A stretch of DNA of 64,000 nucleotides from Desulfuromonadaceae bacterium (GTDB taxonomy: Bacteria; Desulfobacterota; Desulfuromonadia; Geobacterales; Pseudopelobacteraceae). The stretch covers positions 38,659 to 102,658 of the forward strand of contig JAQTZV010000019.1 of the NCBI GenBank assembly GCA_028687585.1, read 5' to 3'. The translations under genes and the position numbers were made by a program. The number at the start of each line of letters is the position of its first letter. Within the stretch, counting starts at the first letter, position 1. Positions 12,319 to 63,989 of the stretch are shown in pieces. A model generated the notes under the pieces. The model searched no databases. It was not told where the DNA came from and saw only the letters and a list, made by a program, of their open reading frames with translations.

Positions 12319-12367
12319 ATCGGCACCTGTAAATGAGGTAATGTACCGGAGTGTCTGAATTAGTCCG

Positions 12368-12396
12368 AAGGTAACCATTCATTTCATCAAAGTCAA
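12368..12396 (-). promoter_or_regulatory. Putative promoter of hsp20-lon
   Basis: Minus-strand TTGACT (12396-12391), 17-bp spacer, TACCTT (12373-12368). It overlaps the upstream in-frame ATG at 12378, which favours translation from 12318. No sigma-32 heat-shock consensus was recognised. Confidence 0.4.
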
Positions 12397-12444
12397 GGCA
12401 GACATTCGGCAGAGGAATGATTCCGTGTGATAGATAAATAGAAT

Positions 12445-12473
12445 TTGACTTTAATCAGGCTATGCAATAAATA
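12445..12473 (+). promoter_or_regulatory. Putative promoter of the polyamine operon
   Basis: TTGACT at 12445-12450, 17-bp spacer, TAAATA at 12468-12473. It lies 48 bp before the speA ATG at 12521 and diverges from the hsp20 promoter. Confidence 0.45.
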
Positions 12474-12520
12474 AAGAAGTTTATTTGAATGAGACTAACC
12501 GAAACTTTGGGAGACAGGTC

Positions 12521-14428
12521 ATGGAAAAATGGTCTATTGGTGAATCTGCCAAGATTTACAATATCGACAATTGGGGTGCTGACCTCTTCTCTATCAACAA
12601 GAAGGGAAACATCTGCGTCCATCCGTCGTCGAATTCCAAGCATGCCATCGACCTGCGAGCGCTGGTTGACGATCTCATCAAACGCAAAATAAAACCTCCG
12701 ATCCTGCTTCGTTTCATGGATGTACTGCAGGGGCGAATTGCCTCAATCAATCGGGTCTTTAAAAACGCCATTCAGGAGAATGATTATCCGGCAAAATACC
12801 AGACCTTCTACCCGATAAAGGTGAACCAGCAACGTCAGGTTGTCGAAGCAATCGCCGGTTACGGAAAACGCTATAACATCGGACTCGAAGTCGGCTCAAA
12901 ACCGGAACTGGTTGCCGGAATTTCCATTTCCAGCGGCAACAATCTGCCGATTATCTGCAATGGCTACAAAGATGCCGAATATATTGAAACTGTCCTGTAT
13001 GCTACAAAAGTAGGCTTTGACATTACGATGGTTGTCGAGAAACTCTTCGAGCTGGAAAAAATTATCGAGATTTCCAAGAATACCGGCATAACCCCGAAAC
13101 TGGGGATCCGCGTCAAACTCTCCTCCAAGGGGACCGGCAAATGGGCCACATCCGGCGGTGAAGACGCCAAATTCGGGCTGCGCATGTCGGAAATAATTGC
13201 AGCAATCCGGATGCTTGAAGCCCAGGGAATGCTGGACTCGGTCAAGCTGCTGCACTCGCATATCGGCAGCCAGATAACCAAGATCGACAAGATCAAAACA
13301 GCACTGATTGAAGTCGCCCGCGTCTATACCGAGATGCGTAAATTGGGCGTAGGCATCGAATTTTTGGACATCGGGGGCGGATTGGGAGTCGATTACGACG
13401 GTTCCAAATCGAGCTATTTTTCCAGCGTCAACTACACCATCGAAGAGTATGCCAACGATGTCATCTACCAGATCAAAAATATCTGTGACGAAGCGGGGGT
13501 TGAATGTCCCAACATTATCTCCGAATCTGGCCGGGCAACCGTCGCTCATTATTCAGTGCTGATTACCAACGTCCTCAACACAAATACCCAGCATTTAATG
13601 CCCGACTTTGAAGAAATTCTGGCACAATCGGAAAAAGTAGCCCCTACCGTTAAAAAACTGATGGATATTTACAAAAGCATCGACCGCTACTCCCTCAGAG
13701 AGGATTACCATGACACCCTGCAGCTGATTAATGAGGCGGTCAGTCTCTTCAATCTGGGTTACCTGAATCTCAATGATCGGGCTATTGCCGAGTGGCTCTA
13801 CTCTAAAATAATTAAAAAGATTAACAGCATCGTCGAGAAGATCAGACCGATTCCGGAGGAGCTGCAAAACTTCCAGCTCTCCATGCGCCAGACCTATTTT
13901 GCCAATTTCTCTCTGTTCCAGTCAATTCCCGACTCCTGGGCAATCGACCAGCTCTTTCCGATCATGCCGCTGCAGCGCCTCAACCAGAAACCGGATGTGA
14001 TTGCCTCCATCGCTGACATCACCTGCGATTCTGACGGTGAGATAACGAGCTTTGTCGGCGAAAACGGCAGGGCCAAGTACCTGCCGCTTCACAAGATCAA
14101 GAAGGACGAGGACTATTACATCGGCTTCTTCCTGATCGGCGCGTACCAGGAAATTCTGGGAGATCTGCACAACCTGTTTGGCGACACCAACGCCGTCCAT
14201 ATCACCTTTAACAAAAAAACCGGGTATATGATCGATACTGTAATCAACGGCGATGCCACCTGGGAAACGTTGAAATACGTACAGTATAAGGGTCCGGAAA
14301 TCCTGAAACGAGTCAGGGACAATCTTGAAAAAAGTGTTGTAATGAAGAAAATTTCCATCGAAGAGAGCAGTCATTTTATCGAACTGCTCGACAGAACACT
14401 GCTGGGCTATACCTATCTGGGAGAATAA
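12521..14428 (+). CDS. speA: Biosynthetic arginine decarboxylase
   Basis: PLP enzyme of fold III that converts arginine to agmatine, the first step of this polyamine route. 635 residues from the ATG at 12521, which has GGGAG seven bases upstream; a TTG at 12485 would add 12 residues without a ribosome site. PLP Lys100 lies in FYPIKVNQQ, and the glycine-rich phosphate loop LDIGGGLGVDYDG is present. The length matches the long biosynthetic SpeA family and not the inducible AdiA type. The next genes convert diamine to triamine, so the operon probably makes spermidine or norspermidine. No agmatinase or agmatine deiminase gene is in the window. Confidence 0.96.
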   Translation: MEKWSIGESAKIYNIDNWGADLFSINKKGNICVHPSSNSKHAIDLRALVDDLIKRKIKPPILLRFMDVLQGRIASINRVFKNAIQENDYPAKYQTFYPIKVNQQRQVVEAIAGYGKRYNIGLEVGSKPELVAGISISSGNNLPIICNGYKDAEYIETVLYATKVGFDITMVVEKLFELEKIIEISKNTGITPKLGIRVKLSSKGTGKWATSGGEDAKFGLRMSEIIAAIRMLEAQGMLDSVKLLHSHIGSQITKIDKIKTALIEVARVYTEMRKLGVGIEFLDIGGGLGVDYDGSKSSYFSSVNYTIEEYANDVIYQIKNICDEAGVECPNIISESGRATVAHYSVLITNVLNTNTQHLMPDFEEILAQSEKVAPTVKKLMDIYKSIDRYSLREDYHDTLQLINEAVSLFNLGYLNLNDRAIAEWLYSKIIKKINSIVEKIRPIPEELQNFQLSMRQTYFANFSLFQSIPDSWAIDQLFPIMPLQRLNQKPDVIASIADITCDSDGEITSFVGENGRAKYLPLHKIKKDEDYYIGFFLIGAYQEILGDLHNLFGDTNAVHITFNKKTGYMIDTVINGDATWETLKYVQYKGPEILKRVRDNLEKSVVMKKISIEESSHFIELLDRTLLGYTYLGE

Positions 14429-24504: not shown

Positions 24505-25293
24505 ATGTGCACAACCTGCGGGTGCCCTTCAACCGATCATGATCATGATCATGACCACCAGCACAGACACGACAGAGATCACAGTCATTCACACGGCCGC
24601 AACGGCAAACATGCACACCATCATGGCGCGGAAACGGGTAAGCGAACAACCATTGCTATTGAAGAGGATATTCTGGGCAAAAACAATCGTCTGGCCGGAT
24701 TTAATCGCGCATTGTTCAAAGATAAGGGAATTTTTGTTTTGAACCTGGTCAGCTCGCCCGGATCCGGCAAGACGACCCTTCTCGAGCGAACCTTGCGCGA
24801 CCTGTCGCAGAGACTTCGCTGTGCCGTCATAGAAGGAGACCAGCAGACCGACAATGATGCCAGGCGCATCGCCGCCACCGGAGTTCCGGTACGGCAGATA
24901 AACACCGGAGCCGGATGCCATCTGGACGCCCATATGATCATGCATGGCACCGATGGTTTTGATATGGACAACCTGGATCTGCTTCTGATTGAAAATGTCG
25001 GCAACCTGGTCTGTCCGGCCGCTTTCGATCTGGGAGAACATCACAAAGTCGCCGTTCTCTCTGTTACCGAAGGAGAAGACAAGCCGCTCAAGTATCCCCA
25101 GATGTTCCGCAACTCGACCGTCATGCTGCTCAACAAAACCGACCTGCTGCCGCACCTTGATTTTGATGTGGAGAAATGCAAGGAGTATGCACGGCGCGTC
25201 AGCCCCGGTATCATTATTTTTGAAGTATCGGCAAAGAGTGGTGAAGGAATGGATGCGTGGTATCAGTGGTTGACTACAGGGTCACAGCACTGA
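24505..25293 (+). CDS. hypB: Hydrogenase nickel incorporation GTPase HypB
   Basis: SIMIBI-class GTPase that delivers nickel to the large subunit of NiFe hydrogenases together with HypA. 262 residues. The N-terminus has the CxxCGC nickel site (CTTCGC), then a His/Asp-rich stretch (about residues 10-48) that can store nickel. The P-loop SSPGSGKTT starts at about residue 83, and EGDQQTDNDA, the metal-binding GAGCHLD and the NKTDLL guanine motif follow. It heads a hypB-hypF-hypC-hypD run. hypA and hypE are not in the window. Confidence 0.97.
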   Translation: MCTTCGCPSTDHDHDHDHQHRHDRDHSHSHGRNGKHAHHHGAETGKRTTIAIEEDILGKNNRLAGFNRALFKDKGIFVLNLVSSPGSGKTTLLERTLRDLSQRLRCAVIEGDQQTDNDARRIAATGVPVRQINTGAGCHLDAHMIMHGTDGFDMDNLDLLLIENVGNLVCPAAFDLGEHHKVAVLSVTEGEDKPLKYPQMFRNSTVMLLNKTDLLPHLDFDVEKCKEYARRVSPGIIIFEVSAKSGEGMDAWYQWLTTGSQH

Positions 25294-27587
25294 TTCTACG
25301 ACAACAACACACTATTCAGGGCATCGTCCAGGGGGTCGGTTTTCGACCGTTCGTGTACCGACTCGCATACGAACTGAGTCTGAGCGGCTGGGTTCGCAAT
25401 ACACCCGCAGGCGTCGAACTTGAGGTTCAGGGCGGTGTTGACCGGCTTAATGATTTTGTAAACGCACTTCAAAACAGACTGCCGCCCCTGGCAGTCATAA
25501 CATCCCAAACCACTGCAGACATTCCTGCCATTGACGGAGATAGTTCTTTTGCCATTCTCCCAAGTGGTACCGGCGAAGCCGATATCCGGATTGCCCCCGA
25601 TACGGCAATCTGCCCTGACTGCCTGAGAGAAATGAGCGACCCGACCGACCGCCGCTATCGCTACCCGTTCATAACCTGCACCAACTGCGGCCCCCGCTAC
25701 AGCATCATCACCGGTATCCCGTACGACCGGCCCAAAACAACCATGGCCGGCTTTTCACTCTGCCCGGATTGCCGGAGTGAATACGAAAATCCGCTCGATC
25801 GGCGCTTTCATGCCCAGCCGATCGCCTGTCACTCCTGTGGACCTCAGGTGAGCCTGCTGAGCTCTGCCGGTGAGATAATTGCCGCACGCGATGAAGCGGT
25901 CACCAGAGCAGTCGAGTTACTAAACAGCGGCGCCATCCTCGCGGTCAAGGGGATCGGCGGCTACCATCTCGCCGTAGATGCCTGTAATCACGAAGCGGTG
26001 CAGCGCTTGCGCGTGCGTAAGAAGCGTGATGAAAAACCGTTCGCCGTCATGGCGGCAGACCTGGAAACAGCCCGCACTCTGACACGGATGGACGGCATGG
26101 AGGAGCGGCTGCTCTGTTCTCCCGAGGCCCCGATCGTCATTGCTAAAAAACGGGACTCCACACCACTTTCGCCGTTGATCGCTCCGGATAACGGCTGGCT
26201 CGGCCTGATGCTGCCGTATGCGCCGCTGCATCATCTGCTGTATGCCCCTCACACCCCTCATCCTGCTTTCACCGCCCTCGTCATGACCAGCGGCAATATC
26301 TCCGACGAACCGGTCGCCTTTGAGGATGACGACGCGTTAGATCGGCTGGTAGGAATCGCTGATTATTTTTTGACCCATGACCGCCTCATCCACATACGCA
26401 GTGATGACTCGGTGCTGCGCGTGTTCCAGAGCAAGCCGATCTTATACCGTCGCGCCCGAGGATATGCCCCGCGCGCTGTCCAGCTCCCCTTTGCCGTCCC
26501 GCCACTGCTTGCGGCAGGGGCGGAGTTGAAGAGCGCCATCTGCCTTGCGGACGGCAGCCACGCCGTGCTCAGCCAGCACATCGGCGACCTGCAAAACCGC
26601 GCCACCCTCGATTCGTTCGAGCATTCCGTCACCCACTTATCCACCCTGCTGGAGATCAAACCGGTACTGATCGCCTGCGACCTGCACCCCGACTACCTGT
26701 CATCCCGTTATGCCGAAGACACCGGCCTGCCATTGGTGCGGGTGCAGCACCATCATGCTCATATGGCCTCCTGCATGGCTGAGAATAATCTGGATGGTGA
26801 CGTAATCGGCATCATTTTCGACGGCACCGGCTACGGCCCTGACGGCACGATCTGGGGTGGCGAATTTTTGGTGGGTGGCTATGACGGCTTTCACCGCGCG
26901 GGCCATTTCCGGCCAGTACCAATGCCGGGCGGAGATGCCGCTGTGCGTGAGCCGTGGCGTATGGCAATGTCCTACCTATATCAGACATACGGAGATGCCG
27001 CCTTTCTGTTCAGCCATACGGTTGCCAGATTTCTTCCGGAGAAAGATCAAGCGCTGTTTGAGCAGATGCTGAAACGCATGATCAACTCGCCTCTGACCTC
27101 CAGCTGCGGTCGGCTGTTTGATGCCGTTGCCGCTCTGCTGAATATACGGCATATAGTGTCGTATGACGGCCAGGGGGCGATCGAACTTGAGTCGGCAGCG
27201 GAATCGGCAGAGAATGCACAAGCCGCTCCCTATCGATACGCAGTTATAGCCAATGGTGATGCACCGCTGCAGCTCGATTTTTCACTGATGTTCACAGACA
27301 TTTTGGCCGATATTGAAACGGGTATTCCAGCATCGGCATCTGCGTATTGTTTTCACCGGACCGTTGCTGCTGCCGCAACTGACATCTGCCTGCGTATAGC
27401 CACTACTACCGCCCTGGAGCGCGTAATTCTCTCCGGTGGGGTTTTTCAGAATCGCCTTTTATGCGAAATGATATATACTGCCTTGACGAACCAGGGTCTT
27501 CACGTGTTTACCCATCGCCTGGTACCGCCGAACGACGGCGGCATCGCCCTGGGACAGGCTGCTATCGCAGGAAGGAGAAACAACTGA
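25257..27587 (+). CDS. hypF: Carbamoyltransferase HypF
   Basis: Makes the carbamoyl group that becomes the cyanide ligands of the NiFe active site, using carbamoyl phosphate and HypE. 776 residues with an N-terminal acylphosphatase domain (GIVQGVGFRPFVYR, about 20-100). A zinc-finger region has paired cysteines (CPDC, CTNCG, CPDC, CHSCG, about 115-195), followed by a YrdC-like domain (about 210-385) and a Kae1-like carbamoyltransferase domain with the VQHHHAHMASCM metal motif. The GTG at 25257 overlaps hypB by 37 bases, with AAGGA eight bases upstream; a second GTG at 25266 is possible. Confidence 0.97.
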   Translation: MVSVVDYRVTALILRQQHTIQGIVQGVGFRPFVYRLAYELSLSGWVRNTPAGVELEVQGGVDRLNDFVNALQNRLPPLAVITSQTTADIPAIDGDSSFAILPSGTGEADIRIAPDTAICPDCLREMSDPTDRRYRYPFITCTNCGPRYSIITGIPYDRPKTTMAGFSLCPDCRSEYENPLDRRFHAQPIACHSCGPQVSLLSSAGEIIAARDEAVTRAVELLNSGAILAVKGIGGYHLAVDACNHEAVQRLRVRKKRDEKPFAVMAADLETARTLTRMDGMEERLLCSPEAPIVIAKKRDSTPLSPLIAPDNGWLGLMLPYAPLHHLLYAPHTPHPAFTALVMTSGNISDEPVAFEDDDALDRLVGIADYFLTHDRLIHIRSDDSVLRVFQSKPILYRRARGYAPRAVQLPFAVPPLLAAGAELKSAICLADGSHAVLSQHIGDLQNRATLDSFEHSVTHLSTLLEIKPVLIACDLHPDYLSSRYAEDTGLPLVRVQHHHAHMASCMAENNLDGDVIGIIFDGTGYGPDGTIWGGEFLVGGYDGFHRAGHFRPVPMPGGDAAVREPWRMAMSYLYQTYGDAAFLFSHTVARFLPEKDQALFEQMLKRMINSPLTSSCGRLFDAVAALLNIRHIVSYDGQGAIELESAAESAENAQAAPYRYAVIANGDAPLQLDFSLMFTDILADIETGIPASASAYCFHRTVAAAATDICLRIATTTALERVILSGGVFQNRLLCEMIYTALTNQGLHVFTHRLVPPNDGGIALGQAAIAGRRNN

Positions 27588-27588
27588 T

Positions 27589-27819
27589 ATGTGTCTTGGC
27601 GTACCGATGAAGATAGTAAGCAGAGAGGGAGACAGCGTTATCGCCGAAGTTGATGGCGTGCAGAAAGAAGCCAGTGTCATGCTGCTCGGCGAAGAGGTCG
27701 CGGTTGGCGATTATGTCATCGTCCATGCCGGCTTTGCCATATCCCGGCTGGATGAGGAATATGCCGAGGAGACTCTGCGCCTGATGCGGGAAATATATTC
27801 AGACGAGGACATGGCATGA
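27589..27819 (+). CDS. hypC: Hydrogenase maturation chaperone HypC
   Basis: 76-residue HypC/HupF chaperone that carries the Fe(CN)2CO unit with HypD to the hydrogenase large subunit. The essential Cys2 is at the N-terminus (MCLGVPMKIV), and the OB-fold pattern ends in the family's acidic tail. It starts directly after hypF, and its stop overlaps the hypD start (ATGA). Confidence 0.97.
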   Translation: MCLGVPMKIVSREGDSVIAEVDGVQKEASVMLLGEEVAVGDYVIVHAGFAISRLDEEYAEETLRLMREIYSDEDMA

Positions 27820-28907
27820 GGTTCCAAGATGAGTTCCGCGACCGTGAACTGGTGCAGAACATGGCAGGCAATATCCGTCACATGGCCGGAAAGCTATCCT
27901 CTCCGGTCAACTTCATGGAGGTCTGCGGCACCCATACCATGTCGATCTACCAGTATGGCATCCGCTCGCTGCTCCCCGAAAATGTCCGACTGGTATCTGG
28001 TCCCGGCTGTCCGGTCTGTGTCACTCCGATCGGTTACGTCGATAAAGCACTTGCCTGCGCAGCCGATCCAACCAACATTGTCGCCACCTTCGGCGACATG
28101 CTGCGTGTTCCGGGGAGCCATTCATCATTGATGGAGCAGCGAGCCGGCGGCGCCGATATCCGTATCGTCTACTCACCGCTTGACGCCGTTGCCTTGGCGA
28201 AAAACAATCCGGAACGACGCGTTGTCTTTCTGGGAGTCGGTTTTGAAACGACCGCACCGACAATCGCGGTCACTGTTCTCGAAGCCGCCCGCCTCGGCCT
28301 GAAAAACTACTGTGTGCTGGCATCACACAAAACCATGCCGGTGCCGATGGACATTCTTACCGGCGACCCGGAACTGAACCTCAAGGGCTACCTCTGCCCC
28401 GCGCATGTCAGCACCGTTATCGGTGGCAACGCCTACAAACCACTGGCGGAAAAGTACCGCATCCCCTGTGTTGTTACCGGTTTTGAACCTGCTGACGTCA
28501 TGCAGGGAATCGAGATGCTGCTTGCCCAGACACTTCGCGGAGAAAGCAGAGTCGAGATTCAGTACAGCCGCGCCGTGACATGGGAAGGCAACCCAAAGGC
28601 ACAGTCGATTCTCAGTCAGCTCTTTGAACCGTGTGATGCCGTCTGGCGCGGTCTGGGCGTATTACCCGGCAGCGGTCTGGCCATCAGGGCTGAGTATGCG
28701 GCGTTTGATGCGGAACGGGTTATGGAGCTTGACGTCCCGGAAGCGGTTGAAAACCGGGCCTGTCTCTGCGGAGAAGTCCTTAAAGGGAAGCTGGCGCCAT
28801 TCGGCTGCCCGCTCTTTGCCACCGTCTGCACTCCTGAATCACCAGTCGGCGCCTGTATGGTTTCCAGCGAAGGGACGTGCGCCGCAGCCTACAAGTACGG
28901 GAGATAA
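27816..28907 (+). CDS. hypD: Hydrogenase maturation protein HypD
   Basis: Iron-sulfur scaffold on which the Fe(CN)2CO unit is built. 363 residues, normal. Conserved motifs are FMEVCGTHT, SGPGCPVCVTP, TFGDMLRVPG, GFETTAPTIA and the C-terminal cysteines (ENRACLCGEVLKGKLAPFGCPLF) that hold the 4Fe-4S cluster; all catalytic Cys residues appear present. It overlaps hypC by four bases. hypE, usually next, is replaced here by a HAD-type protein gene. Confidence 0.97.
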   Translation: MRFQDEFRDRELVQNMAGNIRHMAGKLSSPVNFMEVCGTHTMSIYQYGIRSLLPENVRLVSGPGCPVCVTPIGYVDKALACAADPTNIVATFGDMLRVPGSHSSLMEQRAGGADIRIVYSPLDAVALAKNNPERRVVFLGVGFETTAPTIAVTVLEAARLGLKNYCVLASHKTMPVPMDILTGDPELNLKGYLCPAHVSTVIGGNAYKPLAEKYRIPCVVTGFEPADVMQGIEMLLAQTLRGESRVEIQYSRAVTWEGNPKAQSILSQLFEPCDAVWRGLGVLPGSGLAIRAEYAAFDAERVMELDVPEAVENRACLCGEVLKGKLAPFGCPLFATVCTPESPVGACMVSSEGTCAAAYKYGR

Positions 28908-53837: not shown

Positions 53838-53904
53838 TCGAAAACCATGAATTCAGATACGCTCAGGCTTCGGCCCCTCGTTCCACGGAGGTCCCAAAAC
53901 ATAA

Positions 53905-54089
53905 ACGGAGTGGCAGGTTTCCTGGCTTCAGGGTCATCTTACTAGCCGCTCCTTCCCGGAAATATCCAGTGGCTCATTGCGGCGTTCATCACCTGATACA
54001 GTTGCGGGACAGCGAGGGATTCACACCCTCTTCCCTTTTACCCGTGCCAGCTACGGCACGGCACCAAAACCGTGTGGTGAAACAATTGT
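53905..54089 (-). promoter_or_regulatory. Cobalamin riboswitch
   Basis: Read on the minus strand the leader contains the B12 box GCCAGGAAACCTGCCAC near 53911-53927. It also has the GAATCCCTCGCTGTCCCGCA core and the GTGCCGTAGCTGGCACGGG stem near its 5' end. These are the known elements of AdoCbl riboswitches. It should shut off the cobU-cobC operon when cobamide is plentiful. Boundaries are approximate. Confidence 0.93.
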
Positions 54090-54126: not shown

Positions 54127-54325
54127 AGAGAAATTTATGCTGCCCCCTATTGAATGCAACGCCCGATATTCTTGCACTTACGCCAGAGGACGGTCATCAG
54201 TTATTCCCGATGCTAAACTTTTGTATGAAGAAATCAACATTGAATATTGCATCTGATGTTAGGAAGTGCTAAACAGAGCTCTGCCGTTGCTTTTACTCCG
54301 CTCCAATTACTAAATGGAGGGTCTT

Positions 54326-54754
54326 TTGAGCACACCTACTTTATGTACGAGCATTCAACTGGCCACATTTCTTCTCAATGGAGAAGAATATGGCATTGAT
54401 GTCATGCGGGTTAGAGAAATAACCAGTATGACGGAAATAACCAAGACAGCAAATTCCCCTCCTTACGTCAAGGGTGTCATCAACCTGCGTGGCTCCATTG
54501 TTCCCATCATATCCCTGCGGAACCGCTTCGGGTTTCCCGACATTGACGATGACAGCATGTGTTGTATTGCCGTTATGGACCTGAACAGTGAACTGACCGG
54601 ATTTATCATCGATGAAATCTCAGACGTCGTTCGCGTCAACAAAAGCGATATCCAACCACCCCCCATAGATACAGCCTTGCAACCGTGGATCGAAGGCATT
54701 CTTGATATTAATAAAAAACTGGTAGTCTACTTAAATCTCGAACATCTTGTATAG
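54326..54754 (+). CDS. cheW: CheW-type chemotaxis coupling protein
   Basis: 142 residues from the TTG at 54326, which has GGAGG five bases upstream; an ATG at 54314 contains that ribosome site and has none of its own. CheW fold: LATFLLNGEEYGIDVMRVREI, PYVKGVINLRGSIVPIISLRNRFG, GFIIDEISDVV and the ending WIEGILDINKKLVVYLNLEHL. It links chemoreceptors to CheA. No cheA is in the window. It opens an operon with hydrogenase genes and a soluble chemoreceptor, 13 bases before the next gene. Confidence 0.95.
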   Translation: MSTPTLCTSIQLATFLLNGEEYGIDVMRVREITSMTEITKTANSPPYVKGVINLRGSIVPIISLRNRFGFPDIDDDSMCCIAVMDLNSELTGFIIDEISDVVRVNKSDIQPPPIDTALQPWIEGILDINKKLVVYLNLEHLV

Positions 54755-54767
54755 AAGGGAGTTGTCA

Positions 54768-55262
54768 ATGGAGACAAGCCAGCAAAGGCTAGCCTTACAG
54801 GACGCCATGGTATTTCTGGGTGCAATTGCATCCGGCACGGAGCAGGCTATTGGTGAATCGGCCAACAGCATATCCTATCTGGCCGGGGTAAATCTTGGCA
54901 AAAAGATGTCCGCTGGAGTGCCTCAGACCAGCGATATCCTGGAGGCTCTTGATTCAACCAGAAAAGTTTTGGAAAAGAACGATTATCTCTGGCTGTTCGA
55001 AGCATTCAAAACCCATGATCAGGAAACAGTCGTCCAGGAAGATGATGAGGGCACTCATGTCATGCTTGTCTTTCGGGACTGTATGATCCGCCAGTCACTA
55101 TTCCGTTTTGGCCATACCCAGAAAGGTTCCCTCTGTAACATGATGTACGGCTTTTTTGCCGGCGCTCTGCAAAATATCATGGGCCAGGAGTCATCACTGG
55201 AAATCGTCCACGCCGGCGAGAACGCCTGCTATAAAAAGCTGACAATCAGGAGGGCGTCATGA
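54768..55262 (+). CDS. Hydrogenase-operon small protein A (V4R-like, Cys-containing)
   Basis: 164 residues from the ATG at 54768 (GGGAG upstream). Not firmly assigned. The second half has FRDCMIRQSLFRFG, KGSLCNMMYGFFAG and GENACYKKL, a pattern of spaced cysteines ending in a G-x-x-x-C block as in 4-vinyl-reductase (V4R) small-molecule-binding domains. It is clearly related to the protein encoded at 57875-58330. No signal peptide or membrane segment. It overlaps the hydrogenase small-subunit gene by four bases, so it probably acts with the hydrogenase, perhaps as ligand- or metal-binding sensor (inference). Confidence 0.75.
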   Translation: METSQQRLALQDAMVFLGAIASGTEQAIGESANSISYLAGVNLGKKMSAGVPQTSDILEALDSTRKVLEKNDYLWLFEAFKTHDQETVVQEDDEGTHVMLVFRDCMIRQSLFRFGHTQKGSLCNMMYGFFAGALQNIMGQESSLEIVHAGENACYKKLTIRRAS

Positions 55263-56209
55263 GCGAAGTCACCATCAACACCGAGTGGCTCAGTGATTGC
55301 TCCGGCTGCCATATCGCGATTGTCGATCTGCACGAAAAAATCCTCAATGTTCTGCAGGCGGTGAAAATTCAGCGCTGCCCGGTACTTACCGACATTAAGG
55401 ATTATCCACACGCGACCGTCGGCTTGGTATCGGGTGCTATCCGTAATGAGCATGACCGCCACGCAGCCATCGAGATGCGCAAATCATGCGATATCGTCAT
55501 CGCCTGGGGATCGTGTGCTGTTTTTGGCGGCCCGGCAGGAGCAGGCAATATCCACACCCCTGCTGAAATTGGTCGGGCGGTGTATCTTGAGAACAAAACC
55601 ACCACATCTGCCAATCCCCCCAGCAGTCAGGTTTCACCACTAGAGTCCGTTGTCTCCACTCTTGATTCTGTTATCGATGTTGATCTCTACCTGCCCGGAT
55701 GCCCCCCGCACCCGGCCTTTGTCTTTGAAGCCCTTTCTGCACTGGTTGAAGGTCGTCAACCGGAGGTTAACCGGCGCTCGGTCTGCGCAAAATGCAAACG
55801 GAGCATGGAAAAAACTGATGTAAGCGAGATACGGACAAACTCGGAAGGATTTCCGAATGCCGAGCAATGTTTTTTAAGCCAGGGGTATACCTGCATGGGT
55901 TCGGTTACCATTGACCGCTGCCTGGCCCCGTGCCCTGCCAACGGAATCCCCTGTACGGGTTGTGCCGGGGCAACAATGCAGATTCTGACGGAACCGAACA
56001 GGGATATCAGGACGGAAATTGCCGATCGCATGTCTCGTTTAACCAAAATCGATCATGATAAAATAGTGGTATCACTGGAACGAGCGGCCAAATCCCATTA
56101 TTCATACACCATGGCAACGACGATGATCGGCAGTAAGCCGACGTTTCATATCCGGAAATGGATTGATGATGAAAATGAAGATTATGAAGCCGGGAGGACG
56201 TCGGCATGA
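55259..56209 (+). CDS. NiFe hydrogenase small subunit (cytoplasmic, MvhG/HoxY-like)
   Basis: 316 residues, no Tat signal, so cytoplasmic. Proximal 4Fe-4S ligands are CSGC (residues 14-17), GSCAVFGG and LPGCPPHP. The C-terminal half supplies further cysteines for additional clusters (CAKC, ECF/YTC region, CLAPCPANGIPCTGC). The pattern follows group 3 and related cytoplasmic hydrogenases. AGGAGGG precedes the ATG. It overlaps the large-subunit gene by four bases. It passes electrons between the NiFe site and a partner; the nearby two-cluster ferredoxin is the obvious candidate. Confidence 0.92.
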   Translation: MSEVTINTEWLSDCSGCHIAIVDLHEKILNVLQAVKIQRCPVLTDIKDYPHATVGLVSGAIRNEHDRHAAIEMRKSCDIVIAWGSCAVFGGPAGAGNIHTPAEIGRAVYLENKTTTSANPPSSQVSPLESVVSTLDSVIDVDLYLPGCPPHPAFVFEALSALVEGRQPEVNRRSVCAKCKRSMEKTDVSEIRTNSEGFPNAEQCFLSQGYTCMGSVTIDRCLAPCPANGIPCTGCAGATMQILTEPNRDIRTEIADRMSRLTKIDHDKIVVSLERAAKSHYSYTMATTMIGSKPTFHIRKWIDDENEDYEAGRTSA

Positions 56210-57618
56210 ACAAGACCATTAAAATAGATCCGGTCACCAGGATAGAGGGACATGCCAAGGTATTCATCAATCTGGATGACAACGGCAATCTCGAAAACGC
56301 CGGGCTTGTCGTTAACGAACTGCGCGGATTTGAAAAGATTCTTATCGGCATGGAAGCTGACCGTATGCCGCATATTACCGCCCGTATCTGCGGCGTCTGT
56401 CCGACGGCTCATCATATTGCTGCATCTAATGCGCTTGACTATGCTGCTGGTGTTAAAGCTCCGCCTGCCGCCATGCTGCTGCGTGAACTTATGTATATGG
56501 GGCATATCATCCACTCGCACAGTCTTTCCATCTTTGTTTTGCAAGGGCCTGATCTTGTTATGGGGCTAGATGCGGATCCGGCTGTCAGAAATGTTGTCGG
56601 CATCGTTCAGGCGAATCCGGAACTTGCCAAAATCGCTCTGCGCCTCCGTACTATAGGGCAAAAGATTAACGAGATGGTTGGCGGTCGTGGGACGCATCCG
56701 GTTACTTCCGTTGCCGGAGGCATTACTTTTGTCCTGGACCAGGAGAAGAAAAAAATTATCCAGGAATGGATTACAGAAGCCCGCTCAATGCTTCCTGCGG
56801 TAGTACCCGCAGTCAAGGGACTGCTGCTCAATGCTCTGGACAAACATCCCGCGATGCTCAACGACTGGATCGCACCGTCATGGGGCCTGGGTACGGTCAT
56901 GAATGACCGGGTTTCCTTGATTGAAGGGCAATTGCGGGCGATTGACGAAACCGGCACGACAATGATCGAATTCGGAGTCGAAGATTACGACAAATATCTG
57001 GTGGAATCTGTCGTTGACTGGTCATACATGAAGAAAGTGCACATTAATCTTGATGGCATGCACGAATACCGTGTCGGTCCCATGGCGAGAATGAATGCTA
57101 TGAGAAGTTTTGGCACTGAAATGGCTGATGCAGAATATGGTGAATTTGCCAAACTCGGCGGCAGTCCCTGTCACCTGACCGTGTTCCAGACCTATGCCAA
57201 GCTGGTTGAAACCATCTGGGCGATCGAGCGTGCTGATGAAATCCTCAATGATGCGGCAATCTGGGGCGAAACTCGCGTACCGGTAACATTCAAAGGCGGA
57301 AGAGGCGTCGGACATGTTGAAGCACCGCGAGGCACACTGATTCATGACTACGAGATAGACGAGAATGGAATCATCCGCGCTGCCAATCTCATTGTGGCTA
57401 CCCAGCAGAATTATGCCATCATAAACCGATCCATTGAACAGGCGGCGCAATCACATGTCATTGGCAAGAGTGACGACACTGCACTGTTGAATGCCGTGGA
57501 ATTCAGCATTCGCTGCTATGACCCGTGCCTCTCCTGCGCCACACACGCCGTCGGCAGGATGCCATTGGAAATTGCCATCACCAGAGGCGGCGAACCCGTC
57601 AAGACCATTCGGAGGTAA
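56206..57618 (+). CDS. NiFe hydrogenase large (catalytic) subunit
   Basis: 470 residues with all four active-site cysteines: RICGVCPTAHH (N-terminal L1 motif, about residues 63-73) and DPCLSCATH (C-terminal L2 motif). After the L2 His there are about 23 residues (from AVGRMPLE), the peptide normally removed by a maturation protease, which is encoded three genes downstream. The enzyme should therefore be catalytically competent for H2. No Tat signal in the small subunit, no cytochrome b, NAD-diaphorase or Hdr-type gene adjacent. The hyp genes at 24505-28907 can mature it. Confidence 0.95.
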   Translation: MNKTIKIDPVTRIEGHAKVFINLDDNGNLENAGLVVNELRGFEKILIGMEADRMPHITARICGVCPTAHHIAASNALDYAAGVKAPPAAMLLRELMYMGHIIHSHSLSIFVLQGPDLVMGLDADPAVRNVVGIVQANPELAKIALRLRTIGQKINEMVGGRGTHPVTSVAGGITFVLDQEKKKIIQEWITEARSMLPAVVPAVKGLLLNALDKHPAMLNDWIAPSWGLGTVMNDRVSLIEGQLRAIDETGTTMIEFGVEDYDKYLVESVVDWSYMKKVHINLDGMHEYRVGPMARMNAMRSFGTEMADAEYGEFAKLGGSPCHLTVFQTYAKLVETIWAIERADEILNDAAIWGETRVPVTFKGGRGVGHVEAPRGTLIHDYEIDENGIIRAANLIVATQQNYAIINRSIEQAAQSHVIGKSDDTALLNAVEFSIRCYDPCLSCATHAVGRMPLEIAITRGGEPVKTIRR

Positions 57619-57623
57619 GCGCA

Positions 57624-57878
57624 ATGTCACTTGAAATAGCTATTCACGAACAATCGTGTCGTGGGTGTGAACTGTGTATCGACATCTGTCCTACCAAAGT
57701 TTTTGAACTGGATGAGGAAAAGCGGCTCTGCGCAGTCAAACACGCCGATGACTGCATTGCCTGCCTTTCCTGTGCTTATATCTGCCCGTCAAATGCCATT
57801 ACCCATACGGACTATCATGCGGTAAAAAATTTTTACCGTGATGCCGAATTCTGCCAAAGGATGGGTAAATTCCTATGA
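57624..57878 (+). CDS. Two-cluster (2x 4Fe-4S) ferredoxin
   Basis: 84 residues from the ATG at 57624 (GGAGG upstream). Two cluster motifs, CRGCELCIDICP and CIACLSCAYICP, are complete. The C-terminal 20 residues (YHAVKNFYRDAEFCQRMG) are extra. Five bases after the large subunit and overlapping the next gene by four bases. Likely electron partner of the hydrogenase or an added electron-transfer subunit. Confidence 0.93.
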   Translation: MSLEIAIHEQSCRGCELCIDICPTKVFELDEEKRLCAVKHADDCIACLSCAYICPSNAITHTDYHAVKNFYRDAEFCQRMGKFL

Positions 57879-58330
57879 ACACGACAGACTCCCAATATAT
57901 CCTCAATCTTACGCAAGAAGATTACCAAAAGGCTACGGTTGAAGTTGCCTTTCTGCTGGATGCCTTTGCCAGTACAATTGACAACATCATGGGTGGCAAT
58001 ACCGCTCCGGTCGGCAGGATTGCCGGGCGTGATACCGCAAGCAAGCTCCCTGTCCACCTGACGGATCCGACACTGGATGATATTATCAAACTGTTGGCTG
58101 AACAGATGCATGCCGGGTTTGATTTTACCCTCGACGGCACCGATCTGCTGTTCAAATCGTGCATCATCAGGGATATGTGTGCGGTTCGCAAGATTGAAAC
58201 CGGAGGGGCGCTCTGCCGTCTGTTCCACTCGTATTTTGATGGCATCATCAACGGACTTCTCTGTCGCCCGGTTAAATCAACCATTAATTCTGTTGGTGAC
58301 CTGTGTCGACTTCAGACCACTGTACAATAG
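57875..58330 (+). CDS. Hydrogenase-operon small protein B (V4R-like, related to 54768-55262)
   Basis: 151 residues, not firmly assigned. Shares with protein A the order F-x-x-C-x-I-R (LFKSCIIRD), G-x-L-C (GGALCRLFHSYFDG) and a final G-D-x-C (VGDLCRL); the first halves also align (AFASTIDNIMGG with AIASGTEQAIGE). Soluble, no signal. It overlaps ferredoxin by four bases and the protease gene by 28 bases. A duplicated pair on either side of one hydrogenase suggests both bind the enzyme or a common ligand. Confidence 0.72.
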   Translation: MNTTDSQYILNLTQEDYQKATVEVAFLLDAFASTIDNIMGGNTAPVGRIAGRDTASKLPVHLTDPTLDDIIKLLAEQMHAGFDFTLDGTDLLFKSCIIRDMCAVRKIETGGALCRLFHSYFDGIINGLLCRPVKSTINSVGDLCRLQTTVQ

Positions 58331-58767
58331 TCATCTGTATAGGCAATGAGCTGGTTGCTGATGACGCTGTCGGGTTTGAAATTTTCAATAGGCTTGCCGG
58401 ATGCGAGGCACGACTCGAATATTGCAGTGTAGGGGGGATCGATCTCTTGCCGATGCTTGAAGGTGAAACCGATCTTGTTGTTGTTGATGCCGTTCAACTT
58501 GGGGCGCTACCAGGAACTATTCACGTACTACCGTGGGACGCACTGCCACGAGACAGTAGCACCATATCCTCACACGGACTTGGCTTGCGTGAGACAATTG
58601 AGATCGGCACGACCCTGTATCCGGGAACTATGCCGGAGTGGATTACCTTGGTTGGCATTGAGGGGCGCTGTTTCAACCGCACCAGAGAATTTATGACCGA
58701 AGCGGTTCAGGCCGCTATAGATACAGCAGTTACTATCATTAAAGAACTTGTCGCAAGGGGGCACTAA
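58303..58767 (+). CDS. Hydrogenase maturation protease (HyaD/HybD/HycI family)
   Basis: 154 residues. Nickel-dependent endopeptidase that trims the large-subunit C-terminus. Conserved blocks are CIGNELVADDAVGFEIF with the first metal acid, VVVDAVQLGALPG with the second, and SSHGLGLRETIEIG with the His. GTG start at 58303 inside the previous gene. Its presence, together with the uncleaved tail on the large subunit, argues for a functional NiFe site. Confidence 0.93.
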   Translation: MSTSDHCTIVICIGNELVADDAVGFEIFNRLAGCEARLEYCSVGGIDLLPMLEGETDLVVVDAVQLGALPGTIHVLPWDALPRDSSTISSHGLGLRETIEIGTTLYPGTMPEWITLVGIEGRCFNRTREFMTEAVQAAIDTAVTIIKELVARGH

Positions 58768-60296
58768 TGAGCGCGTCTGTGTATGAGGTTGTCAAACAGT
58801 TATCCGAGTCGATGATTGCAGGGCAGTTGGATTCCAGAGGAGATGCTGCGGAATTGAAAGGAAAAGATGCCGAAACAATCAAGCTGATCAATAATATGAT
58901 CGACTCGTTGGTCTCACCAATGCGCCTCGCAGGAAATGCTCTTGATGAAATCGCTCATGGCAAGCTTCCCCCGTTTGTAATTGATGATTATCAGGGTGAA
59001 TTCAACAAGATTAAACAAAATATCAACACGCTGCTTGCTATCCTCTACGGCATGCATGGGGAGACGGAACACCTGATCAATAGTGTCAACCAGGGCAAAT
59101 TGAAAACTCGCGGCAATGATTGGGATTATGAGGGGATCTGGAAAGATTTGATCGGAGGTATGAACTCTACGCTTGACGCGGTCATTGCTCCTATAAACGA
59201 GGCTGGAGCTGTGTTAGACAAGCTGGCACACTATGATCTAAAAGCGCGTATGAACGGCAAATATCGGGGTGATCACGCCGTAATCAGAAAAGCAATGAAC
59301 GCGACTGCCGGATCGCTACATGAAGCGATCTCCCAGGTATCCGAGACAGTTGGACTTGTCTCTGAGGTTGGCCGGCAGATTACCCGTGTCAGTTCGGTCG
59401 TCACGAAAGGGGCAGAAGAGCAGAGTGTCCAGCTGAACGAGACCTCCATGAGCCTTGCATCGCTTTCGGAGAGTGCTTCCCACAGTGCTCAAAGTACTGC
59501 CGCTGCGCATGCCGACGCAAAAAATGCAACAGACTCCATACTGAAGGCGAAAGAATCCATGAACCGCATGGTTATCTCCATGGGAGACATTAGTTGCGCA
59601 GCAGAAAAAACAACTTTTATTGCACATGAGATTGACGGTATTGCCAAAGAAACCGGGACATTGGCCGGTAGCGCGGTAGAGAAGGCGGTGAGAATGCGTA
59701 TTTCTGCGGGAGGGTTTGGAGTCGTTGCCCAGGAGATCCGCAAGTTGTCGCGGCAATGCACTGAGACAGCACATGCCATGAAAGCATTTGAAAAGAAAAT
59801 GGGTGAAGAACAACAGGAGGAGTTTGGTGAGCTTATTGCCAATCTGATGAGTATTGCCCGATTTTCCAACCTTCTCGGAGTCAACGCCGCCATTGAAGCC
59901 GCTCATGTTGAGGGGGCGGGCAACGAGTTCAAGGACATGACGGATGAAATTCACAGTTTGGCAGTCAGGTCCGCTGATGCCGCCAACAAGACCAGTGATC
60001 TTACCAGAACGTCGGCATCTCTTTCTAAAAGCGGAGTACAACTTTCGGATGAGATTGATAAGCAACTTGAAGGTGCCGTAAAGGGAGCGCATGCGCTCAG
60101 TTCATTTGCAGACGATATATCCGCAAATATTCATGAGCAGACCACAGGTCTTGAACAGATAAGTAAAACGGCTGCGCAGATAAGTGAAGTAACAGATAAG
60201 AATGCTGAGGGAGCTGCCGAGTCACTTGGTGCTGCGAAAAATCTGGAAAACCAGGTCGGAAAACTGACTAAAATGGTGAATCGATTCAGCTTCTAA
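58767..60296 (+). CDS. Soluble methyl-accepting chemotaxis-type receptor with tandem HAMP-like region
   Basis: 509 residues without any membrane helix. Residues about 35-185 hold tandem HAMP-like units (AGNALDEIAHGKLPPFV; LDKLAHYDLKARMNGKY). The receptor coiled coil follows. The tip is odd: one tip-like block at about 287-325 (IDGIAKETGTLAG, GFGVVAQEIRKLS) has lost the usual LLALNAAIEAARAGE core. A second at about 365-395 (SNLLGVNAAIEAAHVEGAG, DEIHSLAVRSA) keeps it with changes. The start overlaps the protease stop by one base. It is the last gene of the hydrogenase operon, and cheW is the first. Probably it senses hydrogenase state through protein contact (inference). Confidence 0.9.
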   Translation: MSASVYEVVKQLSESMIAGQLDSRGDAAELKGKDAETIKLINNMIDSLVSPMRLAGNALDEIAHGKLPPFVIDDYQGEFNKIKQNINTLLAILYGMHGETEHLINSVNQGKLKTRGNDWDYEGIWKDLIGGMNSTLDAVIAPINEAGAVLDKLAHYDLKARMNGKYRGDHAVIRKAMNATAGSLHEAISQVSETVGLVSEVGRQITRVSSVVTKGAEEQSVQLNETSMSLASLSESASHSAQSTAAAHADAKNATDSILKAKESMNRMVISMGDISCAAEKTTFIAHEIDGIAKETGTLAGSAVEKAVRMRISAGGFGVVAQEIRKLSRQCTETAHAMKAFEKKMGEEQQEEFGELIANLMSIARFSNLLGVNAAIEAAHVEGAGNEFKDMTDEIHSLAVRSADAANKTSDLTRTSASLSKSGVQLSDEIDKQLEGAVKGAHALSSFADDISANIHEQTTGLEQISKTAAQISEVTDKNAEGAAESLGAAKNLENQVGKLTKMVNRFSF

Positions 60297-60775: not shown

Positions 60776-63226
60776 ATGACGATAAAAACCAAGCTCATAC
60801 TCAACATGGTTATCGGTGCCGTCGCAATCTGGTCGATAGTTATTACCAGCGTATTCGGCTTGACTTTTATCAAAAACAAACTCTCCTACCTGACCCAGAA
60901 AAGTACCCCATACCAAATTCGAACGATAGAATTTCAGAAAGATCTGCAGGGAGTCATTACTGATCTGATAAAAGTTAACGCTGCGCGCACTCCGGAAGAA
61001 TATAAGCAGTTTAAAGCCGAGGCCGATAAATCACTGGCCACGGTAAAGAGTGCCCAACTGGCACTTGAGGAGATGAGCAGCAGCAAGTTAGGCGCAGCAG
61101 AAGAGCTGGCTCTGACTGCAGAGGAACTGTGTGCCGCTGCACTTGCACGGATAACCACCGACAAGGATGCCGCAGATTCAAACAGCAGAATTGCCCTGAA
61201 GATGAAAGAGTCCTCGGCCCGCCTTAAAGAACTGGATAAACGGATCCGCATCCTTCAGACCGGGCGTTCCAACTCCTTTGCTGCCGCTATGAAAGATACC
61301 GGAAGTTTTTCATCCCGCCTCCGCAGCGTAGAAGAGCTGCGAAACCTGATTAAAGACATTCAGCTGATCTTCGTCACCGTCCAGAATGCCCAGAAGAGCA
61401 CCGCTGTGCTGATCGCAAAAGGAAAGGTCAACTCAGTGCTTGGGCGCGTAGCCAAGAATAATTACCATAATGAGAACGAAGCGATTGAAAAAGACACCAA
61501 GGTTGTGTTCGATAAACTGACGGAGTACATAAAGCTCCAAACGGCGGCACTTGCAGCAAAAGATGAAGAATCAAAAGCAAAAACTGTTGAAGCCGGCAAA
61601 GATCTTTCTGAAAAACTGAATGCTCTCTACCTGACTCTTGATCAGGAAGCCACTCTGGCGGGAGAAAAAGTCAACGTTGAAACCCAGAAGCAGGCGAGTA
61701 TCTACGGGCAGTCCAATGCAGCCAATTCTATTTTGCTCGATAACTCGGAGTTGGTGGCACTCGGCTTGATGATAGAGGGACAGACAAACCGCTTGTTTAC
61801 ACTGGAATCGAGCGCTGAGATCGACACGCTTGATTTGGAAATTCGCACTCTCTTCACCAGAATGACCGACCGCGCAGCCGCTGTTGAAAAGGCATTGATC
61901 AAACTCGGTGCAAAAGAAGAGCTTAAAAATCTCAGGGGGGCATCTACTGCATTGGCAGGAGTTCGAACAGACCTGCATGCCTCAAACGGGATTATTACTG
62001 CCCTAAAAAAGCACCTGACCGCTATCGATCAAGCGACAAAGGCAGGCGATAAACTGCGGGCGGTGGTACTCAAGCAGGCCGAGAAGGGCAAGGAGAGCGT
62101 CAATACGGCAAAGGGAGAGCAGGAAAAAGCGATCGGTTCCGTAAATAAAATGGTCAAGAACAGCATCATTCTGTTGATTGCCATCGGCTCTGTCGCTGCA
62201 ATCATCGGCATCTTTTTCGGTATATGGAGTTTCAGATCAGTTATCCGTCCTCTAAATTCTCTTGTTGAGGTTGCTGAGAGTGTTGCCGAGGGCAATCTCC
62301 ACGTTCGCGACATGAAAAAGAGCAATGACGAGTTTGGCTTGATACAGGGCGCCATGGCCAAGATGGTACACAACCTGCGTGATATGGTGGGACGTATCAG
62401 TAGCACCACTTCAACCGTTGCCAGCAGCTCCGAAGAGTTGGCCTCTACCGCCAATGAACTGGAACGAAACTCCCAGACTCAAACCAATGGCATTGAGACA
62501 ACAGTAACCGCCATGACCGAAATGGTACAGACTATTCAGGATGTATCGGGCAACGCTATAAACACTTCTGATTCCGCCGGCCGCATGAAACAGATCGCAC
62601 TGGAAGGCCAGAAGGCACTCGATGTCACATCAAAGGAGATGTACGCTTTTGCTGACATCGTCCGCCAGTCGGCAGAAAAAACCGAGGCACTCGGGACTAA
62701 ATCAGAAGCGATCAACGAGATTGTCGAAATGATCAAAGATATTGCCGACCAGACCAACCTGCTGGCGCTTAATGCCTCCATCGAAGCGGCCCGCGCCGGT
62801 GAAATGGGGCGAGGTTTTGCCGTTGTCGCCGACAGTGTCCGTCAACTGGCTCACCGTACTATCGAATCATCAGGGGAGATCAGTCGTACTGTCAAAGATA
62901 TGCACGATGAGGTTGATTCAACGGTCAGCATTATGAACAAACAGCGCAAGGCAATAGAAAGCATCATCCAGCATGTAGATGGTACGCTCAAATCGATGGG
63001 TGACATTGTCAACCATGTCGAGCAGGTATTCGGTATGGTGCAGACCATTGCCACCGCAACCGAAGAACAATCCGCAACTGCAGAGGATGTCAACCGCACC
63101 ATGGTAGGTATTCATGACGTAACCCGCCAGTTGACCCTGTCGGTTGTGGAGATTAAAGGAACTTCTGAAAACTTCGCCAAACTGGCCACTGATCTGCAGC
63201 AGATGGTTGGCTGGTTCAGGTTATAA
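60776..63226 (+). CDS. Transmembrane methyl-accepting chemotaxis protein
   Basis: 816 residues. First membrane helix about 8-30, a long helical periplasmic region (about 31-455), second helix about 458-482 (SIILLIAIGSVAAIIGIFFG), HAMP (about 483-535), then the cytoplasmic signalling domain. The tip is canonical: DIADQTNLLALNASIEAARA followed by GRGFAVVADSVRQLA. It ends WFRL without a CheR-binding pentapeptide. The periplasmic part is far larger than a four-helix bundle and all-helical, similar in size to helical bimodular sensors doubled. The ligand is unknown. The next gene begins 25 bases downstream. Confidence 0.94.
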   Translation: MTIKTKLILNMVIGAVAIWSIVITSVFGLTFIKNKLSYLTQKSTPYQIRTIEFQKDLQGVITDLIKVNAARTPEEYKQFKAEADKSLATVKSAQLALEEMSSSKLGAAEELALTAEELCAAALARITTDKDAADSNSRIALKMKESSARLKELDKRIRILQTGRSNSFAAAMKDTGSFSSRLRSVEELRNLIKDIQLIFVTVQNAQKSTAVLIAKGKVNSVLGRVAKNNYHNENEAIEKDTKVVFDKLTEYIKLQTAALAAKDEESKAKTVEAGKDLSEKLNALYLTLDQEATLAGEKVNVETQKQASIYGQSNAANSILLDNSELVALGLMIEGQTNRLFTLESSAEIDTLDLEIRTLFTRMTDRAAAVEKALIKLGAKEELKNLRGASTALAGVRTDLHASNGIITALKKHLTAIDQATKAGDKLRAVVLKQAEKGKESVNTAKGEQEKAIGSVNKMVKNSIILLIAIGSVAAIIGIFFGIWSFRSVIRPLNSLVEVAESVAEGNLHVRDMKKSNDEFGLIQGAMAKMVHNLRDMVGRISSTTSTVASSSEELASTANELERNSQTQTNGIETTVTAMTEMVQTIQDVSGNAINTSDSAGRMKQIALEGQKALDVTSKEMYAFADIVRQSAEKTEALGTKSEAINEIVEMIKDIADQTNLLALNASIEAARAGEMGRGFAVVADSVRQLAHRTIESSGEISRTVKDMHDEVDSTVSIMNKQRKAIESIIQHVDGTLKSMGDIVNHVEQVFGMVQTIATATEEQSATAEDVNRTMVGIHDVTRQLTLSVVEIKGTSENFAKLATDLQQMVGWFRL

Positions 63227-63251: not shown

Positions 63252-63989
63252 ATGTTCAACAAAATCGCTCTCTGTTCGCTGCTATTTTCTCTTTGCACAA
63301 CACAAGTAATGGCAGAAGTGCTGAAAATCGGAGCGGGAGCAGCCCCTACCGAAAATGTATTAAAACCGGCGAAATTGGCCTTTGAAAAGGCGACTGCCCT
63401 GGATTTGTCTATTCTTTCAAGCGGTCCAAAACAGGCGTTTATTGACCTTGAGCGGGGTTCCGTAGATGCTGCCGCAGCAGGGCTTTCCTTCGACGACTGG
63501 ATGGCACTTTTAAAAAGAGAAGGCATTACCGTTGCCGATCCAACCATTTACCAGCAGGCTATCATCGGTAAAGACAAGGTTATCGTTATTGTGCACAAAG
63601 ACAATCCGATTCAGAAACTGACCAAAGAACAATTGACCGGCATTTTTTCCGGCAAGAGTACCAACTGGAAAGATGTTGGTGGCAAGGATGCACCTATTCT
63701 CGTTGTGTGGGGTGGCTTAACCCAGGGAACCAATTCAATGTTTGTCAAACATATTATGGATGGAACCAAGCCTACCAGTGAAGTTATACCAGCGACAACC
63801 GCTGAGGATATCCGTCATAATGTCGCATCAAACCCTGAAGCGATTGGAATCGGTCCGCAGGCGGTTGTAAACCAGACGGTGCGATCGCCAGAGACACCTG
63901 AGCTCGCACGGCCCATAACGCTGATAACAAAAGGTGCGCCTTCAGCAAAGGTTAAAAAGCTTCTTGATTTTATTGCAGGGCAAAAGTAG
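63252..63989 (+). CDS. Periplasmic phosphate-binding-protein-like (PstS-type) protein
   Basis: 245 residues with a signal peptide (about 1-21, TTQVMAEV). PstS/PBP-like 2 fold: LKIGAGAAPTENVL, VIVHKDNPIQKLTKEQLTGIF with the SGKSTNWKDVGGKDAP block typical of the family, then GTNSMFVKHIM. Shorter than transport PstS and lacking the full TGAGAT-like phosphate loop at the N-terminus. No pstABC genes are visible. AAGGAG precedes the ATG. It follows the chemoreceptor by 25 bases and may present a ligand to it (inference). Confidence 0.85.
   Translation: MFNKIALCSLLFSLCTTQVMAEVLKIGAGAAPTENVLKPAKLAFEKATALDLSILSSGPKQAFIDLERGSVDAAAAGLSFDDWMALLKREGITVADPTIYQQAIIGKDKVIVIVHKDNPIQKLTKEQLTGIFSGKSTNWKDVGGKDAPILVVWGGLTQGTNSMFVKHIMDGTKPTSEVIPATTAEDIRHNVASNPEAIGIGPQAVVNQTVRSPETPELARPITLITKGAPSAKVKKLLDFIAGQK

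Follow-up and report, generated by a model that had tools for sequence, protein, structure and literature searches.

A hydrogenase of the Mvh type and a soluble chemoreceptor are encoded together in an operon of a sediment bacterium of the Desulfuromonadaceae (assembly GCA_028687585.1, contig JAQTZV010000019.1, positions 38,659 to 102,658; this stretch of 64,000 nucleotides is called the window below, and coordinates refer to it). A functional link between the hydrogenase and the receptor is well supported by the sequence comparisons. We consider it probable that the hydrogenase has been re-used as the input of a cytoplasmic chemoreceptor and acts as an H2 or redox sensor, with H2 and the kinase CheA as the presumed ends of the pathway. 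Eight open reading frames (ORFs), all co-directional, were confirmed on the plus strand at 54314-60296, in the order cheW, A, [NiFe]-hydrogenase small subunit, large subunit, ferredoxin, B, maturation protease and soluble methyl-accepting chemotaxis protein (MCP). Some adjacent genes overlap and no gap between them exceeds 13 bases, in agreement with the original prediction of eight genes on one strand with overlaps or gaps of at most 14 bases.

The link between hydrogenase and MCP rests on the recurrence of the gene order in two phyla and on a co-occurrence in the class Desulfuromonadia with one known exception. Among 277 genomes of the class, a profile of A matched 32, one of them (G058) through a divergent copy only, while the doubled-tip segment of the receptor, described below, was detected in 33 at E 3.1e-38 or better, the next best match being 8.8e-11. 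This receptor type, called MvhV, accompanies a strong A match in 31 of 31 genomes, and core genes are present in 32 of the 33 genomes with the receptor, including one without a strong A match (G042), in which the genes from small subunit to MCP lie on a truncated contig. Counted by distinct large subunit, the MCP gene lies directly downstream in 35 of the 36 operons from MCP-bearing lineages: 31 of 32 in the class, the single case from a Syntrophobacterales metagenome-assembled genome (MAG) and all three from Ignavibacteriota MAGs. The remaining operon (L007/L131) is interrupted by a contig end; another contig of the same genome (L132) starts in the ferredoxin gene and carries B, protease and MCP. 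Core and MCP form a stable unit within the class. This is only partly true of cheW, which was found upstream in 18 of the 32 class operons (17 plus the window) and in none of the four MCP-bearing cases outside the class; one of the 14 class operons in which it was not found (L124) ends at a contig edge. Presence is patchy within genera of the class, suggesting that the hydrogenase/receptor pair was gained or lost together, and the near-constant co-occurrence suggests that the enzyme serves as an H2/redox sensor for behavioural signalling. A phylum-wide sample yielded A or its divergent form in 6 of 395 genomes. The three Ignavibacteriota copies differ from those of the class and share a common branch; the non-class cases are all MAGs, and binning error is possible. 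The first refuting condition named by the original prediction, a gene order confined to this strain, does not hold. In one genome (G035), a second MvhV-like fragment was observed on another contig (L126), either a second copy or an assembly effect.

The receptor gene (58767-60296, plus strand) encodes a 509-residue protein in which two HAMP_2 stretches precede an MCP signalling domain (MCPsignal, 80 bits against a cut-off of 34.6). No sensor domain was recognised in the domain search. As originally claimed, the protein is free of a membrane segment: no membrane helix was detected by hydropathy, the best 19-residue mean being 1.13 compared with 2.75 for the neighbouring MCP. The hairpin tip is duplicated in tandem, with copies at residues ~279-345 and 349-410. 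Tsr, with its single tip, can be aligned to MvhV at two places, and both copies align to one stretch of the neighbouring ordinary MCP (643-709 and 642-703, respectively); an ordinary MCP has one hairpin tip, which is not the case here. In an alignment of 35 MvhV sequences, one of them incomplete at its end, conservation is strictest in the second half of copy 1 (SAGGFGVVAQEIRKLS) and the first half of copy 2 (NLLGVNAAIEAAHVE), and the motifs NAAIEAA in copy 2 and GGFGVVAQEIRKLS in copy 1 are largely unchanged across the two phyla. Compared with Tsr, copy 2 has H380 in place of Arg and copy 1 has K306 in place of Glu, both fixed in the 35 sequences. The only internal insertion falls after residue 345, and it is here, at 343-346 between the tip copies, that the structure model makes its single turn; the predicted local distance difference test score (pLDDT) is 70.9 but the predicted template-modelling score (pTM) only 0.35. 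DosM, from the F9 array of Vibrio cholerae, is described as a cytoplasmic receptor whose rod carries a signalling domain at either end (PMC7534058). Two signalling tips are common to both proteins, but in the MvhV sequence the copies lie in tandem, behind N-terminal HAMP stretches.

The hydrogenase itself appears complete. The small subunit (55259-56209, plus strand) is Oxidored_q6/VhuG-like and the large subunit (56206-57618, plus strand) NiFeSe_Hases/VhuA-like in Pfam/NCBIfam, with VhuG at 3.9e-71 and VhuA at 6.9e-105, both below the NCBIfam cut-off. A search of the PDB returned MvhG (5odc, 7e-70) for the small subunit and, for the large subunit, 7t2r followed by 5odc (MvhA). Judged by these NCBIfam and PDB matches, the enzyme is closest to [NiFe] group 3c (Mvh/Vhu). 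The active-site motifs RICGVCPTAH and DPCLSCATH are intact and the latter is followed by a C-terminal tail of 23 residues, so that the claim of intact active-site cysteines and tail holds. RxCGVCP.AH and DPCL.C.TH, with their four cysteines, and a tail of 23-28 residues recur without exception in the 75 large-subunit copies whose coverage was at least 85%; these comprise 58 distinct sequences, and at least 3 of the 75 derive from the window. Twelve cysteines of the small subunit are invariant in the main lineages (56/56), and three iron-sulfur clusters are therefore expected. Also invariant there are the eight cysteines (53/53) of the 84-residue 2x[4Fe-4S] ferredoxin (57624-57878, plus strand; Pfam Fer4_7, 1.6e-11). 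The maturation protease (58303-58767, plus strand; HycI/hydrog_prot) matches NCBIfam TIGR00072 at 1.3e-27, above the cut-off. Genes for cofactor supply lie outside the operon on the plus strand at 24505-28907 and comprise a hypB-like gene, hypF, a hypC-like ORF (27589-27819, assigned by eye) and hypD; hypE is not beside them, and its sole match above the cut-off comes from contig C26. One further [NiFe] large subunit is encoded elsewhere in the genome.

The partner genes of group 3c Mvh enzymes are MvhD and HdrABC. These are absent from the operon and its annotated neighbours, Hdr elsewhere in the genome not having been searched, and for this reason we label the enzyme Mvh-type rather than a member of an Mvh-Hdr complex; compared with MvhAG/VhuAG, to which both subunits are closest, the operon has a receptor in place of MvhD/HdrABC. 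The proposed lack of a diaphorase, cytochrome b or Hdr partner was borne out in that none was recognised in the operon or adjoining genes, the upstream ORFs being assessed by eye; the annotated flanking genes of selected relatives gave the same result.

A (54768-55262, 164 residues) and B (57875-58330, 151 residues), both on the plus strand, gave no Pfam match at E 0.001. They are homologous to each other (hhalign probability 97.3, E 2.3e-11). The structure model of A resembles the phenol-sensing domains of MopR/PoxR/DmpR, the V4R protein MJ1460, H-NOX and TRAPP Bet3; as modelled, A has the nitric oxide-signalling/Golgi-transport ligand-binding fold (Bet3/MopR/H-NOX), a fold of ligand-sensing type. 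Against Pfam V4R, A of the window scores 14.1 bits, below the gathering cut-off of 31. Unlike V4R proteins, the MopR/PoxR/DmpR sensor domains, Bet3 and H-NOX, A belongs to a homologous pair of free-standing proteins encoded next to a hydrogenase. Residues C105, H116, C123 and C154 of A are invariant in the main lineages, as are C96, C102, C114 and C144 of B (54/54), and the invariant cysteines of the pair could form a metal or cluster site. ATC_hydrolase matched weakly 12 of 16 members of the B family, and not the B of the window.

The operon seems to be known already by name. In Geobacter sulfurreducens, an Mvh cluster of eight loci, GSU2416-2423, has been described (PMC8691401); GSU2417-2420 and the hydrogenase subunits GSU2418/2419 are listed for it (PMC2669807, PMC4667449), and MvhV, a methyl-accepting chemotaxis transducer, is given as an Mvh protein in figure legends (PMC8691401, PMC7894505). 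Both are [NiFe] hydrogenase clusters that include such a transducer and, judged on names and locus numbers, they are probably the same operon. Relative to pure culture, Mvh and others were more abundant when Syntrophobacter was present as a coculture partner (PMC8691401), and a role in H2 production has been suggested for Hya, Hox and Mvh (PMC7894505). The accessible parts of these descriptions mention no sensor role, A/B fold, duplicated tip or co-occurrence. Our literature searches found no functional test of the Mvh operon and, judged largely from their listings, nothing on a sensor that couples a [NiFe] hydrogenase to a chemoreceptor, although an earlier proposal in Coppi 2005 is possible; the main text of a Geobacter chemotaxis survey contains no word beginning with "hydrogen-" (PMC2577667).

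The idea that chemoreceptors take part in H2 sensing has been raised before, but no demonstration of it was found. In HydDB (PMC5037454), [FeFe] group C2 is "Chemotactic (putative)", a proposed H2 sensor acting via methyl-accepting chemotaxis proteins. The MCP link is common to both systems, but here the hydrogenase is a [NiFe] Mvh-type heterodimer with a ferredoxin and the A/B pair. Membership in C2 itself is ruled out by the [NiFe] subunits, and the operon is best read as a [NiFe] counterpart of this putative chemotactic group. A second comparison is with group 2b (HoxBC/HupUV), in which a soluble hydrogenase serves as H2 sensor, as proposed here, but belongs to a different hydrogenase group. 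Group 2b HoxBC is without a C-terminal extension and does not need the protease. Membership in this group was rejected, as the operon has a 23-residue tail, a protease gene, and an MCP with CheW instead of a histidine kinase. HydDB proposes [NiFe] 2b, which is linked to a histidine kinase, and 2c as sensory, and its accessible text names no chemotaxis-linked [NiFe] class (PMC5037454).

As we picture the sensor, the Mvh-type hydrogenase would oxidise H2, or equilibrate with the low-potential electron pool of the cell, and electrons would leave the iron-sulfur clusters of the small subunit by way of the ferredoxin and arrive at A/B. The response of A/B, or of the complex as a whole, would then reach MvhV through physical contact with its N-terminal HAMP chain, and MvhV would in turn alter CheA kinase activity via the CheW of the operon (54314-54754, plus strand; 146 residues; Pfam CheW, 2.4e-35) where present, or else via a CheW acting in trans. 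The contact, the electron route, the H2 stimulus, the CheA output and the choice between taxis and gene control are steps that we infer. The original prediction that the H2 or redox state of the hydrogenase is passed to a chemosensory array is partly supported, namely as regards the hydrogenase-MCP link, while the signal and the array output are inference. In favour of the sensor are the lack of a recognised input domain or membrane helix in the receptor, the fold of ligand-sensing type modelled for A and the absence of a recognised acceptor enzyme nearby. The genome also has its own CheA (4 CheA-type matches), CheW (21 domains) and FliM as well as hyp genes, and regulator genes lie near three of four divergent cores, described below.

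Several observations weigh against this interpretation. The same core of six genes occurs without an MCP in 18 of 18 Desulfobulbales-type operons, so that the core does not need the receptor. The receptor type is absent from all 12 of these 18 genomes that were searched (best match 9.9e-8), and the same search was positive in all four MCP-bearing outsiders. The one exception within the class, G072, has a receptor (L125, 6759-7838), but A was found nowhere in the genome and no core gene on the receptor contig; this receptor lies behind an ORF of 1319 residues and the contig end falls within it. The co-occurrence counts are raw, with no correction for relatedness, and the receptor counts come from at most 13 first-look candidates scored per genome. 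The processed tail, protease and full relay are retained as in a metabolic enzyme, and the fold modelled for A is common to TRAPP assembly proteins and is thus no proof of sensing. Finally, the altered and invariant tip positions mean that coupling to CheA/CheW cannot be assumed.

Three other explanations are partly compatible with the sensor, and their probabilities overlap with it. The enzyme could be a metabolic, bidirectional cytoplasmic hydrogenase that makes or uses H2 with the ferredoxin pool, the MCP being a stable passenger or a sensor of something else. The intact catalytic site, the protease, the complete iron-sulfur relay, the Desulfobulbales-type cores that do without an MCP and the H2-production role suggested for Mvh together with Hya and Hox (PMC7894505) are all consistent with this. 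A private receptor subtype that accompanies the core almost without exception despite its patchy distribution in the class is not readily accounted for in this way, nor are two proteins from a sensor-type fold family and the failure to recognise an adjoining acceptor enzyme, and we hold a purely metabolic role to be unlikely. Somewhat less likely still is that A/B senses a small molecule or metal, with the hydrogenase adding or removing electrons, so that the stimulus would be chemical or redox in nature rather than H2 itself: the likeness of A to MopR/PoxR/DmpR, MJ1460 and H-NOX and the conserved Cys/His residues of A and B agree with it, but A is equally close to the assembly protein Bet3. 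The doubled-tip receptor might also serve to anchor the hydrogenase complex as a scaffold, without driving CheA. Each tip copy carries an alteration at a site that is constant across the 35 sequences (H380, K306), and cheW was not found in 14 of the class operons (of 32), including one at a contig end; on the other hand, the largely unchanged tip motifs of both copies and the presence of cheW within 18 of the 32 operons make a mere scaffold improbable.

A broader form of the sensor interpretation, which we put forward only tentatively, is a modular gas sensor in which the Mvh-type hydrogenase and the pair with the Bet3/H-NOX fold are the input and the outputs are exchangeable. These outputs would be a private double-tip receptor in one lineage, whether or not a CheW is encoded with it, and response-regulator/DUF4388 and kinase genes in another; by virtue of its tandem tip, MvhV would then be a new structural class of receptor, possibly with its own array, and the result would be H2-directed behaviour. 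The four divergent cores (L073, L074, L122, L123) bear on this point. None has an MCP directly downstream; A, small subunit, large subunit and ferredoxin are present, B was found in three, and a protease match in none. Ferredoxin and B lie within a single ORF of 239 residues in L074, and the ferredoxin ORF of L073 has 240 residues. Response-regulator/DUF4388, Roadblock or kinase genes were found near three of the four, the domain search having covered all but L122, for which neighbouring ORFs were listed. L073 and L074 adjoin response regulators with DUF4388 and histidine kinases. Roadblock is fused to the DUF4388 regulator in L074 and is a separate gene in L073, whereas L123 has an adjoining DUF4388 gene and a Roadblock gene farther away. 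Varied neighbours of this kind fit a sensor module with exchangeable outputs, on thin evidence.

What is new here is the A/B fold pair, the doubled receptor tip and the hydrogenase-receptor co-occurrence. If the sensor is real, energy metabolism would be joined to behaviour in syntrophic and metal-reducing sediments, the Geobacter Mvh hydrogenase would gain a role, and an unusual chemoreceptor architecture would be added. G. sulfurreducens is non-pathogenic and genetically tractable and, since the cluster has been reported there, the question is directly testable.

A number of neighbouring genes were also recorded. Where annotated, the Desulfobulbales-type operons (L022-L037, L039-L042) lie near HSP90, PCMT and YaaA genes or near a kinase/sigma-54 regulator pair, and in L040 and L041 a REC-GGDEF gene is found downstream, past other genes. 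In the Syntrophobacterales MAG (L018), a GGDEF ORF (12217-13305) overlaps the end of the MCP gene. Upstream of the operon in the window, a cobalamin riboswitch is located on the minus strand at 53896-54083, and the minus-strand ORFs behind it resemble cobalamin and folate genes when judged by eye; the operon therefore begins after a divergent intergenic stretch. Downstream, an ordinary membrane MCP (60776-63226) is followed by a PBP-like binding protein (63252-63989). This membrane MCP is kept beside the operon only in a close relative (L004/L130).

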